NCBI RefSeq assembly: GCF_029892095.1
Contig: NZ_JARZAE010000004.1
Span: forward strand, 124,001-188,000
Reading direction: 5' to 3'
DNA length: 64,000 bases
Source of the DNA: Kitasatospora sp. MAP12-44
GTDB lineage: Bacteria > Actinomycetota > Actinomycetes > Streptomycetales > Streptomycetaceae
Shown: one piece after another, positions 50,506 through 55,424 of the stretch
Layout of the letters: the number at the start of each line of letters is the position of its first letter
Position numbering within the stretch: the stretch's first letter is position 1
Made by a program: the position numbers and the translations under genes
Notes under the pieces: model-generated
What the model was told of the DNA's origin: nothing
Database searches by the model: none
What the model saw: only the letters and a program-made list of their open reading frames with translations

Positions 50506-50645
50506 GCACGATCACCTGCCTTGATCACGTTGACAGGTTCCGCCATTCCGAATTCACGCCGTTCCCGGACTCACGGGCGACGAGATCCACGGCACGCCGG
50601 CGTTCCGTTCACTTGTTTCTGCTTAGGGCCTGTTCTGAGTTCAGA

Positions 50646-51236
50646 TCATGTGGCGGGCCGTAGGCTGCGGAGCCAGATGACGGCGCCGCGTAGGTGGAGT
50701 CCGGCGAGGTAGCTGTCGGGGGTCTTGTCATAGCGGGTGGCCAGACCGCGCCACTCCTTGATCTTGTTGATACAGCGCTCGACGGTGTTGCGGTCCTTGT
50801 AGAGGTCGGCGTCGTGCGTGACGGGACGGCCGCCGCGCGAGCCCTTCTTCCTGCGGTTGGCGGCCTGGTCGACCTTCTCCGGGATGACGGCCTTGATCCG
50901 GCGTCGGCGCAGGTAGGCGCGGTTGGCGCGGGAGGAGTACGCCTTGTCGCCAGCGATCGCGTCCGGGCGGGTGCGGGGCCGGCCCACCGGAACGCGGACC
51001 TTGATCCGCTCGATGACCGGGATGAAGCGGGGGCTGTCGGCGGCCTGCCCAGGCGTGAGCACGAAGGACAGCGGCCGACATTGGCGTTCGGCCGCGAGGT
51101 GGGTCTTGGTGGTCAGCCCGCCGCGCGAGCGTCCCAGCTCGGCCGCGCGGAGCCGGGCCTTGCGGCGACGGCGGACACGACGGCGTTCCTCGCGAGTCGC
51201 GTCGTCCGTCTCGCCGGCCGGGCCGGGCGCCGCCAC
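50646..51236 (-). CDS. IS5-family transposase, C-terminal frame
   Basis: 196 residues in the other frame: GRSRGGLTTKTHLAAERQCR, FIPVIERIKV, DAIAGDKAYSSRANRAYLRR (second Asp), RNTVERCINKIKEWRGLATR (catalytic Glu). Expressed as a fusion with the 51236-51652 frame by ribosomal frameshifting. Stop lies just inside the left terminal repeat. Confidence 0.88.
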   Translation of the reverse strand: MAAPGPAGETDDATREERRRVRRRRKARLRAAELGRSRGGLTTKTHLAAERQCRPLSFVLTPGQAADSPRFIPVIERIKVRVPVGRPRTRPDAIAGDKAYSSRANRAYLRRRRIKAVIPEKVDQAANRRKKGSRGGRPVTHDADLYKDRNTVERCINKIKEWRGLATRYDKTPDSYLAGLHLRGAVIWLRSLRPAT

Positions 51237-51652
51237 TACTGGATCGGTTTGCCCCTTTTGTGGAGCCCCTTTTCCTTCGTGGCGGCCTTCTCCAGATCCT
51301 GCAGCAACTCCGGGTCGACGACCATCCCGGCCGCGTGGTGGTGCGCGCGGGCGACCGTGGAGTCCACGCTGACCAGGCTGAGATCGACCTGTCCACGGGC
51401 TGCGGCCTCGGCGATCATCCCCTCCATCAGCGCCTGGAAGGTCCCCGTGGTCGCCCAGATCTGGAACCGGCCGTAGACGGTCGACCAGGATCCGTAGCGC
51501 TCAGGGACGTCCCGCCATGGACTCCCGGTCCGAAACCTCCACATCACCGCATCGAGCTGTCGGCGCAGGTCGGGGATCGGCCCACGCTCGCCCAGCGGCA
51601 GGAGCGGCTCCACCAACTCCCATTCGGCATCGCTCAGATCACCACGCGTCAC
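51236..51652 (-). CDS. IS5-family transposase, N-terminal frame
   Basis: 138 residues from a GTG at 51652: DLSDAEWELVEPLLPLGERG, QLDAVMWRFRTGSPWRDVPE, and the first catalytic Asp in LVSVDSTVARAHHHAAG. It ends at 51236 beside A-rich slippery runs (AAAAGG in GGAAAAGGGG and CACAAAAGGGG), where -1/+1 frameshifting would join it to the second frame, as in many IS5 elements. Confidence 0.88.
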   Translation of the reverse strand: MTRGDLSDAEWELVEPLLPLGERGPIPDLRRQLDAVMWRFRTGSPWRDVPERYGSWSTVYGRFQIWATTGTFQALMEGMIAEAAARGQVDLSLVSVDSTVARAHHHAAGMVVDPELLQDLEKAATKEKGLHKRGKPIQ

Positions 51653-51727
51653 ACCGCCGTTCTACCGGGCCGAGACCGTCCGGCGTCGGCGAACCACCAA
51701 ACCGTGATCTGAACTCAGAACAGGCCC

Positions 51728-52037
51728 TAGACCGACCGGCAATAGGCAGCGGTGTGCGGCGAGGTGGCCGGTCGAGTGCAGTGCGGGCACGGGTCCACGT
51801 GATCATGGAGTCCTACCTTTCAGGCGTGGGTTCGTACTGGTCACTCGTAAGATCGGTGGGCCCAGGGGCTCTGGGTATGGCTGTCATGGAGGAGCCGATC
51901 GGATGGCTCAGAGAACATGGCCGCCCGGAGCCCCGCGACGACTCGACCGCCAATTGGGATGTGCGACTTGATCGCTCTGTAGGACTACGTCGGCGAGGTC
52001 GTCTGCTGGATCGATTGGCAACGACAAGCTGACGGAG
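51728..52037 (+). ncRNA. Candidate bridge-RNA region of IS110 element
   Basis: 310 bases without a gene between the IS5 right end and the IS110 recombinase start. In the IS110 group the non-coding segment upstream of the recombinase encodes the structured bridge RNA that pairs with target and donor DNA. This stretch has the right position and length. Local pairing such as GGGCCC around 51868 and complementary GATCG/CGATC segments is visible, but I cannot fold it by eye. The left end of the IS is not defined. Confidence 0.4.
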
Positions 52038-53234
52038 GTGGCCGTGCCCCGGATCTGGGCCGGAGTGGACATCGGCAAGGAGCATCACCACTGCGTGGTG
52101 CTCAACGATCGGGGCGAGCGTCTGCTCTCCCGCCGGGTCCTGAATGACGAAGGGGTCCTGCTGGAACTGATCCGCGACGTCCTGGACATCGACCAGGACG
52201 TGCTGTGGGCAGTGGACATCAACCACGGTGGTGCAGCCCTGTTGATCGGCCTGCTGCTCAACCACGACCTGCCCATGGCCTACCTCACCGGCCTGGCGGT
52301 CCACCGAGCCTCGGGCACCTACCGCGGCGAAGCCAAGACGGATGCGAAGGACGCATTCGTCATCGCCGACCAGGCCCGCATGCGCCGTGATCTGGGCCGG
52401 CTGCGGCCTGGCGACGAGATAGCTGTCGACTTGCGCATTCTCACCACCCGCCGCACCGATCTGGTCAGCGACCGCACCCGCCAGATCAACCGGCTCCGCG
52501 CCCAACTGCTGGAGTTCTTCCCAGCGTTGGAACGCGCACTGGACCTTACCAACAAGGGTCCTGTCGTTCTCCTGACGGGCTACCAGACCCCGGCCGCCAT
52601 CCGCCGAAGCGGCGCGAAGCGCATCGAGACCTGGCTGCGCAACCGCAAGGTCCGAAGCGCAGAGATCCTGGCGAAGACCGCCGTGGAAGCGGCGCAATCT
52701 CAGCAGAGCGCGCTGCCCGGCGAGAAGCTCGCCGCCGCCATGGTGATCCGCATGGCCAAGGCGGTGATGGCCCTCGACGAGGAGATCGCCGAGCTCGACG
52801 CACTCATCGAGGCCCGGTTTCGCGAGCATCCGCATGCCGAGGTGATCCGCAGCCTGCCGGGGATGGGCAGCCAGCTCGGGGCCGAGTTCATCGCCGCCAC
52901 CGGCGGTGACATGGGTGCCTTCGCCAGCGCGGACCGCCTGGCCGGCTACGGCGGCGTCGCCCCGGCTCCCCGGGACTCCGGCCGCATCAGCGGCAACCTT
53001 CACCGCCCTCGGCGCTACCACCGGGGCCTGCTGCGGGTCTTCTACCTCTCCGCGATGGCCAGCCTCAGATCCTGCCCCGCGTCCCGGACCTACTACGACC
53101 GCAAGCGCGCCGAGGGTAAGGGGCACAAGCAGGTCCTGATCGCGCTCGCGCGCCGAAGAGTGAACGTGCTGTGGGCGATGATCCGCGACGGAGCGTGCTA
53201 CCAGGCAGCACCACCAGTCACGGCGGCGGGTTGA
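52038..53234 (+). CDS. IS110-family recombinase/transposase
   Basis: 398 residues. N-terminal DEDD RuvC-like domain: IWAGVDIGKEHHHCVVLN (Asp), VLWAVDINHGG (Asp), YRGEAKTDAKDAFVIADQAR (Asp-Asp). A helical linker follows, then the C-terminal Transposase_20 domain: IRSLPGMGSQLGAEFIAATG, FASADRLAGYGGVAPAPRDS with the catalytic Ser. GTG start with GGAGG upstream. All key residues are present, so it may be active. The element is RNA-guided in known relatives (IS621). Confidence 0.92.
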   Translation: MAVPRIWAGVDIGKEHHHCVVLNDRGERLLSRRVLNDEGVLLELIRDVLDIDQDVLWAVDINHGGAALLIGLLLNHDLPMAYLTGLAVHRASGTYRGEAKTDAKDAFVIADQARMRRDLGRLRPGDEIAVDLRILTTRRTDLVSDRTRQINRLRAQLLEFFPALERALDLTNKGPVVLLTGYQTPAAIRRSGAKRIETWLRNRKVRSAEILAKTAVEAAQSQQSALPGEKLAAAMVIRMAKAVMALDEEIAELDALIEARFREHPHAEVIRSLPGMGSQLGAEFIAATGGDMGAFASADRLAGYGGVAPAPRDSGRISGNLHRPRRYHRGLLRVFYLSAMASLRSCPASRTYYDRKRAEGKGHKQVLIALARRRVNVLWAMIRDGACYQAAPPVTAAG

Positions 53235-53282
53235 CAACGGCATTGGGATGTTCTCTACGCTCAGTGATCACGAAGGACGGCC

Positions 53283-54053
53283 GTGCCCGCGCTGCCATTT
53301 TGCCTGCTCGAACCCCTCTGGGACCAGTTCGCCGCTCTCCTGCCCGTCCGGGGAGAGTTCGTCGTGGACCATCCGCTCGGCTGTCATCGCCGCCGGATCT
53401 CCGACCGGACGGTCTTCGAGCACATCGTGCTCGCGCTGGTCCACGGCTCCGGCTACGAGCGCATCTCCACCCCCGGCTGTTCCGACCGCACGATCAGACG
53501 CCGTGTCAACGAGTGGGCCGAGCTGGGGATATCCGAGAAGGTGCACGCCCTCGCGCTCGCGGCGTACGACCGGATGATCGGCCTCGGGCTGGGCGAGATC
53601 TCGGTCGACGGCTGCATCACCAAGGCCCCGGCCGGCGGCGAGAAGGCCGGACGGTCGCCAGTGGACCGGGGCGACTCGCCCCTGCTCGGCCCCACGCTGG
53701 ACGCGGCGAAAGCTCAGGTCGGCACGATGCCCGAGACGGTCAACGTCAACCTCGACCGCGGCTACGACAGCGCCAAGTCGCGCACGCTGATAGCCCAGTT
53801 GGGATATACGGCAGAGATCGCACGCAAGGGCGTTCCCGCCCCGATCCAGGCCGGCAAGCGCTGGGTGGTCGAGCGCACGCACTCGTGGATGAACGACTTC
53901 GGCAAGCTGCGTCGCTGCACGGAGCGCAGTGGCAGCGTCGTGGACTTCTACCTCTACCTCGCCGCCACCCTCGTCACGCTCCGCATGCTGATCCGCCGAG
54001 CAACGAGCCGCTACCGCTGGGACGGCCGCCCCACCACCCGACGCCTCAAGTGA
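53283..54053 (+). pseudogene. IS5-family transposase with in-frame core deletion
   Basis: 256 residues, GTG start. N-terminal DUF4096-type HTH: LEPLWDQFAALLPVRGEFVV ... RISDRTVFEHIVLALVHGSG. The core begins EISVDGCITKAPAGGEKAGR SPVDRG but jumps straight to DSPLLGPTLDAAK. In family members about 25 residues (a KxGLKRS..., ...GxxxAGANRH-like strand pair) lie between SPVDRG and DSPLL. The rest, NLDRGYDSAKSRTLI and RKGVPAPIQAGKRWVVERTH, is intact. Loss of core strands should abolish activity while leaving the frame open. Confidence 0.7.
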
Positions 54054-54165
54054 TCCATTTGCCGGCCGGTCTTACTTGCAGTGTCGGTTTGTAGGCCGAC
54101 ACCGGGTCTGACCGTCTGTTTGTGGATGTCGGGAGGGCGCGTCTCACCCAGTAGGGTCCACCGGC
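54054..54165. other. Short region between IS5 remnant and integrase remnant
   Basis: 112 bases with no gene. GCCGGCCGGTC and GTCGG...CCGAC complementary pieces near 54062-54100 may be an IS end, but terminal repeats could not be confirmed. Confidence 0.35.
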
Positions 54166-55424
54166 ATGCAACAAGTGTTCTACTCATCAGCAGGTTGGGA
54201 AACCTGGGGGCTGGAGTTCAAGCCGGTCATACCGGAGGGCATGTCGTTGATCTTCGACGATGACCTGCTCTTCGAGGACGCGGACGGCCTGAGGTGCTCG
54301 GCGGTGGTGAACGGTGGGCCTGCGAGCTGCCGACCCACAAGGTCCCGGCGGACAACTCCTGGCCCTCGTACGTCCGGGTTGTCCGGGAGTGGATGGAATT
54401 CGGCGCCGAGTACGGCGTGAGTCTGCTGGATAGCCGGGACCGGCTGAAGGCACTGCTCGGCGCGTACTCGGTCCACCGCTCGCGCGGCCCGTTGAAAGAC
54501 CGGTTCAAGGCATCGACGTGGAACCACCACATGGCCATCCTCGGCAGGTTCTACTCCTGGGCGACCGACAACGGCCATGCCACGGCGGTGCCGTTCACCT
54601 ACCGTTACGCCACCGGGGTGTTCGGCGGCCAGATCCGCGAGATGACGGTGAACCAGGCCCGTCGGCGGCAGCCGAAGGAGCACGTGACGATCAAGTACCT
54701 GGAGGAGGACTTCGCCGAGCTCTTCTTCAAGGGTCTGGCCCGGCTGCAGCCGGACGGCAGCCCCGAGCGGGGCTACCGGGGCCGGGAGATGGCGCGCAAC
54801 GCGGCGGTGGGCCGGTTCATGTTCGCGTCCGGGCCGAGGAACCAGGAGTTCAGCTATCTGCTGGCCGCCGAAGTGCCCGCGCTGCCCGCGCGCCGGACAC
54901 CGATGCCGCTCCCCTTCTCGCTGCCGTGGGGCATCACCAAGGGCGGCAAGTTCCGGCACACGTGGATCGACTACGACACGTTGGCCGAGCTGCACAACTA
55001 CCTGGCGTTCGAGCGGGCGAGCGCGGTGCGGGGCTCATCGTGGATGCCGCCGAGCCGCTGGGGCGAGCCGCTGATGGTGACCGAGGCCGACGCCTTAGGC
55101 GGCCGGGTCAACGGCTCCCGGCTGCGCTGGGAGGACCTGGGGCCCGGCGAGCGCCGCCGCCTGGTGGCACCCGGCGGCGGGTCGATGCTGTGTGATGCGG
55201 ACGCCGCGCTCGCGCTCTACCTGACCGGCCACGAACCGCTGCTGGTCCTGCGTGACCTGCTCGGCCACTCCAGCGCCTTGACCACGGAGAAGTACCTGCA
55301 CCGGCTCGACACCACCCGGATCTTCGCCGAACTGCCCCCGGCCGCAGCCGGACACTCGAAGGCCGACATGCGGGCCGCCGAGCACGAAGCGGCTGCCGAG
55401 TTCGACGACGAGGACGACATCTGA
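54166..55424 (+). pseudogene. Tyrosine site-specific recombinase, frameshifted and missing catalytic box
   Basis: The first frame reads MQQVFYSSAGWETWGLEFKP ... FDDDLLFEDADGLRCSAVVN and shifts near 54315 to WACELPTHKVPADNSWPSYV, the core-binding domain of a Streptomyces integrase. A one-base loss explains it. Further on, EMARNAAVGRFMFASGPRNQ EFSYLL (box I Arg), GITKGGKFRHTW (Lys) and LLVLRDLLGHSSALTTEKYL (Tyr) are present, but between VAPGGGSML and DADAALALYL about 60 residues including the HxxRH box are absent. So two independent lesions. A shorter ORF from 54294 stays open. Confidence 0.8.

Follow-up and report, generated by a model that had tools for sequence, protein, structure and literature searches.

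Does the gene-free region that precedes an IS110 recombinase gene in Kitasatospora sp. MAP12-44 encode a bridge RNA and, if so, to which sites would its guides lead the element? The candidate was put forward in an earlier note on a 64,000-nucleotide stretch of this genome (hereafter the window; the genome comprises 9.04 Mb in four contigs), which placed it in the 310 bases (51728-52037) upstream of what seemed an intact recombinase. The proposal is supported by a conserved structure and by four guides that match the junctions of the insertion, and neither of the two outcomes that the note named as refuting came about. Very probably, the window holds an IS110-group element that is complete, belongs to an IS900-like lineage, carries its own bridge RNA and is aimed by its guides at the hairpin tips of other transposons. 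At the level of sequence, we show the ends of the element, its GT core, an RNA of three hairpins and the four matching guides. Published accounts of related elements, cited here from excerpts, serve for comparison throughout.

The recombinase

The open reading frame at 52038-53234 (+) encodes 398 amino acids, against about 326 for the recombinase of IS621, and follows a non-coding region. Its matches to PF01548 (E 4e-48) and PF02371 (E 9e-17) bear out the intact IS110 recombinase of the earlier note, with a GTG at 52044 as the likelier start codon because the GGAG ahead of 52038 lies too close to that position. Four acidic residues, D11, D60, D102 and D105, are invariant in all 20 aligned sequences (window included), and so is S314, which aligns with the IS621 serine preceding a glycine and counted as S241. 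The catalytic set announced as DEDD plus serine is thus right in its four acidic residues and its serine, and needs amending at the second position to give D11-D60-D102-D105. This D60 takes the place of E60 in IS621, an assignment made by position rather than by residue-level structural alignment, and one position of the DEDD motif may be D or E according to excerpts of two reports (PMC8141618, PMC1525189).

An AlphaFold model of the protein (mean pLDDT 86.6, with low confidence at residues 312-321 around the serine) matched the fold of ISCro4 with a Z score of 21.3 and that of IS621 with 21.2 (residues 4-393, rmsd 4.9, 21% identity in the structural alignment), the next family in the fold listing being TIGR-TasR (Z 16.2). 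Sequence and predicted fold together point to a likeness with IS621 and ISCro4.

Ends, core and surroundings of the element

The limits of the element were obtained from empty sites: when 70 genomes of the genus were searched at the DNA level, some proved to have the left flank (to 51814) contiguous with the right flank (from 53250). Three such sites (L120, L121 and L122) read GATCATGGARTTCTCTACG where the window sequence is interrupted. In the window, the left junction reads GATCATGGAGT/CCTACC and the right junction GGGATGT/TCTCTACG. Target and donor have nothing but GT in common where they cross over, which makes GT the core and gives an element of 1440 bp at 51812-53251 (+), counted from the base that follows the left core up to and including the right core. 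The left core (51810-51811) joins left target to right donor and agrees with the right target and right donor guides described below; the right core (53250-53251) joins left donor to right target, as read from both the empty sites and the guides. Between the left core and the recombinase frame there are 226 non-coding bases (left end, LE, 51812-52037), and the right end (RE, 53235-53251) measures 17 bp and contains the left donor. Of the 310 bases originally proposed, these 226 belong to the IS110 element, while the remaining 84 (51728-51811) are the edge of an interrupted host insertion sequence (IS) plus the core. Membership of the IS1111 group was considered and rejected on account of the 17-bp RE and the location of the RNA in LE. 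The elements of that group, with their seekRNA, are likewise RNA-guided DEDD recombinase systems (PMC11187229, PMC11208160, in excerpt), but have their RNA in the right end and long subterminal repeats (PMC11187229).

Several insertion sequences are crowded at about 49-54 kb of the window. A separate IS5-family element (50626-51727, minus strand, PF13340 on one ORF), whose termini occur four more times elsewhere in this genome, had been taken to mark the insertion context; its end instead meets the left tip of the host IS at a TA and lies 84 bases short of the IS110 boundary. It carries two adjoining minus-strand ORFs of 138 and 196 amino acids. On the other side, a 376-residue ORF at 54294-55424 gave no Pfam match, and its C-terminal part (LLGHSSALTTEKYLHRLD) bears what we take to be a tyrosine recombinase motif.

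A conserved RNA in the left end

The conserved structured part of the RNA occupies 51834-52008 (+) and was delimited by covariation and by two covariance models, R1 and the held-out R2. In the window it folds into a 5' stem-loop, a stem whose internal loop (the target-binding loop) is flanked by the target guides, and a stem with the donor guides (the donor-binding loop). We would guess, from a -10-like box only, a transcript start near 51826. Among 40 sequences, pairing is kept in 95.5% of 1674 cells of the 42-pair structure, and two-sided changes are seen at 19 of the 42 base pairs. The covariation score was 0.237, in comparison with 0.135 ± 0.005 for shuffled alignments (none of 500 reached it) and at most 0.078 when the structure was slid. 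Model R2, built from 25 sequences without the window and without relatives more than about 75% identical to it in the recombinase, matches 51834-52008 (+) at 185 bits, with no other match in the 64 kb up to an E value of 10. Against these figures stands the minimum free energy, which was uninformative (z -1.1; 27 of 200 shuffles folded equally well). No Rfam family reached its gathering cut-off in the window.

Across the phylum, with matches accepted up to E 1e-5 and strict filters that lose weak ones, the RNA model detected 7 of 198 sampled genomes (the present one included), in 4 of 148 genera. Most of the 79 named relatives found by protein belong to Streptomyces. By homology and anatomy, as judged from these comparisons, the RNA is a bridge RNA; it stood up to the available sequence tests and belongs to a kind already known. 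The architecture follows that of IS621, where excerpts of the original reports (PMC11208160, PMC11208158) describe a bridge RNA in LE, a recombinase of the same fold (Z 21 to ours), a 5' stem-loop followed by two internal loops, guides in the order left target, right target, left donor and right donor, a dinucleotide core and a promoter at the circle junction.

Four guides and their matches in the window

The left target guide (LTG) UCAUGGAGG lies at 51884-51892 (+; TCATGGAGG as DNA at 51884) and agrees at eight of nine positions with the target TCATGGAGT at 51803-51811, the mismatch, which counts against it, falling on the second core base. The right target guide (RTG) AGAGAAC at 51910-51916 (+) is the complement of GTTCTCT at 53250-53256 at all seven positions. 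The left donor guide (LDG) AUUGGGAUGU at 51953-51962 (+; ATTGGGATGT as DNA at 51953) is identical over ten of ten bases to left donor plus core at 53242-53251, that is, to the right end plus core. Finally, the right donor guide (RDG) GUAGGAC at 51979-51985 (+; GTAGGAC as DNA at 51979) is the complement, 7/7, of core plus right donor, GTCCTAC, at 51810-51816. The order LTG-RTG-LDG-RDG and the strand logic of the pairing are those published for IS621 (PMC11208160). An A at 51917 (+), directly after the RTG, is complementary to the donor T immediately left of the core and is our candidate for a target-loop handshake base, in parallel with the handshake pairing of IS621.

As for chance, 20000 left ends simulated with a first-order Markov model included none with all four guides at the observed match levels; singly, such matches arose in 2.9% (LTG), 1.0% (RTG), 0.015% (LDG) and 1.5% (RDG) of them. 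The comparison that had been suggested, guides against junctions deduced from empty sites, thus gave matches for all four. The native core of the window is GT and that of IS621 is CT, with GT tolerated there (PMC11208160, PMC11208158, in excerpt); the two targets differ.

Guides follow sites in the relatives

A set of 102 left ends (window included) was assembled, of which 67 were parsed and 35 were not. Thirteen of the latter merely had no right-guide anchor and were read later, 11 of them with a right end; the remaining 22, most of them truncated, were left out, and seven among these (L032-L034, L037, L039, L040 and L093) are distant relatives with a different left end. The RTG matched its own insertion site at 6.97 of 8 positions on average, in comparison with 3.98 ± 0.27 after permutation (30 unique pairs; none of 5000 permutations reached it). 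For the LTG in fixed register the figures were 3.61 of 7 and 2.39 ± 0.19 (51 unique pairs; 0/5000), and when a shift of 0-6 bases was allowed the best 6-base match averaged 5.20, against 3.86 when permuted (59 unique pairs). On the unfavourable side, 22 of 51 LTG matches of at least 5/6 need a shift of 1-4 bases. The GG/GT core mismatch between LTG and target seen in the window recurs in 10 of 51 pairs. Regarding the donor, the RDG matched 7/7 in 58 of the 67 parsed left ends, six in seven and five in two, and its position is the best place in the loop region.

The core itself is GT or GC in the parsed left ends, and RTG and RDG share it in all 66 where both are readable. The different readings of the core agree in 62 of 67; one has no RDG reading and four (L041, L051, L073 and L077) are discordant, with a left core unlike the guides and a right core that, where known (L051, L073 and L077), agrees with them. 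From their sequences, these copies look as if each left half retained its own core, a pattern that fits cleavage 3' of the core as described for IS621 in part of PMC11208158. Two elements exceed the others in length, L077 with 1826 bp and L085 with 1653 bp, and may be composite copies. In the 11 later-read left ends with a right end the core is TC, and the guide fits at 8/9 positions in eight cases, 7/9 in one and 6/9 in two. The GC and TC cores of these relatives differ from those of IS621, which nearly always end in T (PMC11208160, PMC11208158, in excerpt). Eight further loci were also searched: L161 fits at 9/9, L168 at 8/9 and L167 at 7/9 guide positions, and L162 at 8/9 with an RTG picked by eye (2/9 with the automatic anchor), L163-L166 being unparsed or devoid of a right end.

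In 48/48 parsed left ends, with three pair types, and in 11/11 further ones, the base that follows the RTG complements the donor base to the left of the core; in L168 it does not. A second, reciprocal handshake position is complementary in only 32 of 64; this and the exception of L168 count against the bridge RNA reading.

That guides track sites and donor ends throughout tens of relatives also bears on a quite different role for the structured left end, that of a leader or small RNA which only regulates the recombinase gene, the guide matches being incidental. Such a role has a precedent within the family, as two small RNAs regulate the transposase of ISPpu9 (PMC8450116, in excerpt), but leader control predicts no tracking of this sort, and we consider that explanation very improbable indeed.

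A putative promoter at the circle junction and a proposed cycle

A -10-like box, TACCTT, lies at 51814-51819 (+) in LE, and a -35-like box, TTGACA, at 53231-53236 (+) in RE; only in the excised circle are they 17 bases apart. When 38 distinct junctions were compared, the pattern TAC[CGT]TT was present in all except one, and TTGACA stood complete (6/6) at a spacing of 17 or 18 in 35, with 5/6 in two more. With the genomic flank substituted for RE, the best -35 match fell to 1-4 of 6 (36 readable junctions). The putative promoter TTGACA-17-TACCTT would then form in the excised circle only, an arrangement like that reported for IS621.

The cycle that we propose would start with excision of the element as a circle, in which the joined RE and LE would put TTGACA 17 bases from TACCTT and drive transcription of the RNA. 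The recombinase would bind this bridge RNA, whose second loop would pair with the circle junction ATTGGGAT-GT-CCTAC and whose first loop would pair with the target TCATGGA-GT-TCTCT, and strands would be cut beside the core and then exchanged.

The window copy might belong to such a system and yet be dead, that is, no longer mobile. There is a single copy in its own genome, which gives no sign of recent movement, the exact free target is absent from that genome (three places come within one mismatch), and the LTG carries its core mismatch. Nonetheless, the reading frame is intact with its catalytic residues, as are the guides, the two ends and the promoter-like boxes, and the mismatch is common in relatives; a dead copy seems to us unlikely, at a level that deserves to be kept in mind.

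The target, a hairpin of other transposons

The site to which the bridge RNA of the window would direct the element lies in the host IS that it interrupts. The left end of this IS, 51729-51809 (+), has a terminal repeat AGACCGACCGGCAA at 51729 and the 5' arm of a hairpin at about 51783-51806, and matches the uninterrupted copies at L120-L122. The remainder of this IS (53252-54075, +) comprises the 3' arm at about 53265-53290 with a GTG start, the transposase ORF (53283-54053, +, 256 amino acids) and a right terminal repeat near 54060, located by eye. Compared with the uninterrupted copy L141 (283 amino acids), this transposase is 27 residues shorter in the middle of the protein, and the host IS is therefore probably defective besides the IS110 insertion.

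The sequence that would serve as target in recombination is TCATGGAGTTCTCT. Its uninterrupted form, TCAYGGARTTCTCTACG, has 28 exact copies in 13 of 70 genomes of the genus, and the reversed control none in the same 70 genomes. The sequence on the two sides sufficed for folding in 15 distinct copies, and in every one the target lies at the tip of a long hairpin (folds of 99 bases, -40.8 to -63.5 kcal/mol, taken without a shuffled control); the core is placed at the margin of this tip, which is 7 bases long. In seven of the 15 (L133, L135, L137, L138, L139, L141 and L143), a GTG in the 3' arm opens the first long ORF downstream. The hairpin (51783-51809 and 53265-53290 in the window; L132-L159) combines a nearly invariant tip, CAYGGARTTCTCTACG, with variable arms, and is common to two IS groups. 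A search of seven hairpin loci against Rfam, with E values up to 1, returned one sub-threshold miRNA match only.

A transposase of one of two types is found at 21 of the 28 target loci, directly downstream of the site in 19; of the other seven, five lie at contig ends and two (L136 and L144) have no such transposase. The first type carries DUF4096 and is annotated as IS5 family; the second carries DDE_Tnp_1_assoc and is presumably ISAs1-like. The two gave no mutual alignment by blastp, and both carry the broad DDE_Tnp_1 domain, for which reason we regard them as distinct IS groups rather than as wholly unrelated enzymes. Since this hairpin, at whose tip the target lies, holds the transposase start codon in at least two distinct IS groups, elements of this guide lineage would be aimed at other transposons. 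The guide set and the homing on a hairpin common to distinct IS groups are apparently the new parts of the system, going by sequence comparison; the element or close kin may already figure in the supplementary tables of PMC11208160, which hold thousands of elements.

The choice of site follows the guide. The motif GATCAYGGART is present on the left of 13 of the 14 parsed elements with the left guide TCATGGAG (and of L115, a further copy with the same guide), and of none of the 53 with other guides. On the right, readable in eight of the 14, six continue with TCTCTAC and two (L063 and L064) do not; these are aberrant sites and count against the rule. In this regard, the recombinase could itself recognise hairpins, leaving only fine specificity to the guide. 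IS110 elements such as ISPa11, ISPpu9 and ISPpu10 do enter palindromes, namely those of REP sequences (PMC1525189, in excerpt), and the core lies at the edge of the tip here, but relatives with other guides occupy other sites, and this makes hairpin recognition an improbable main determinant in comparison with aiming by the guides. Moreover, unlike the REP palindromes, the hairpin of the window belongs to other transposons and contains their transposase start.

In some insertion sequences, such as IS10 and IS50, hairpins over the transposase start block the translation of read-through messages, and by analogy the target hairpin may do the same for the host IS.

Gene starts and the IS900 lineage

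In relatives from other branches, many targets look on the minus strand like a Shine-Dalgarno (SD) sequence plus ATG, with right guides such as AAAGGAC and AAGGAGC. The window target is also start-like on that strand (AGAGAACTCCATG), yet it lies inside an IS hairpin with an ORF of 55 codons. Among the 53 parsed left ends with other guides, CATG occurs in the left flank of 22; the right end is available for 40 of the 53, and of these 24 resemble an SD sequence and 16 combine this with CATG. An ATG lies near the core in 37 of 61 distinct left flanks, and 25 of the 37 (68%) open an ORF of at least 100 codons, in comparison with 46% of 247 control ATGs, a modest excess given here without a significance test. 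In L049-L053 and other gene-start relatives the left guide is the same and CATG lies 1-4 bases farther from the core. It looks, from these sequences, as if left pairing tolerated bulges in the gene-start relatives; a left guide tolerating 1-4 unpaired target bases would explain the variable spacing between CATG and core.

IS900 reportedly targets translation initiation signals, to judge by the title of a 1997 paper by Doran. Its target motif is given as CATGNNNNNNTCTCCTT in the excerpted PMC8141618. The relative L168, from Mycobacterium intracellulare, has a right guide, AAGGAGA, that matches both its own flank TCTCCTT and the IS900 motif. The same source describes for IS900, from Mycobacterium avium subsp. 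paratuberculosis, further features akin to those of the window element: a length of 1451 bp, a target of the CATGNNNNNNTCTCCTT class, a left-end motif beginning ACCTTTC and a long antisense ORF, 'hed' (PMC8141618). With IS900 compared by its published description, the window element differs in its guides, AGAGAAC and TCATGGAG, and in having an IS hairpin as its site. In the open-licence literature we found no paper joining IS900 or a Mycobacterium IS110 element with bridge RNA or seekRNA, nor one on bridge RNA together with a start codon or ribosome binding site.

An ORF resembling 'hed' runs in the window from 53243 to 51813 (minus strand, 476 codons), its ATG six bases after the AGAGAAC of the target. 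Antisense ORFs of at least 300 codons are present in 20 of 40 distinct elements and absent in the other 20. A synonymous shuffle of 42 ORFs gave 50 antisense stops in the real sequences and 50.0 in the shuffled ones, a test unable to judge the matter because in-register antisense stops depend only on codon counts. We do not count it as a gene.

Implications

The window provides a fully specified set from a high-GC actinomycete lineage, with its four guides, core, target, donor and promoter boxes, and the relatives add about 30 natural pairs of right guide and target open to direct testing. Their GC and TC cores, together with D60, widen the range known from IS621. As a broader view, which we hold tentatively and at slightly less than even odds, a bridge RNA lineage would have moved from gene starts of the IS900 type to the nearly invariant tip of a hairpin over the transposase start of distinct IS groups, bringing about RNA-guided entry into transposons and perhaps their silencing, with a gene-start left guide that tolerates 1-4 unpaired bases. 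The comparison offers a guide-based account of why IS900-type elements prefer translation starts, as has long been known, and points to RNA-guided transposons that may live on other transposons.
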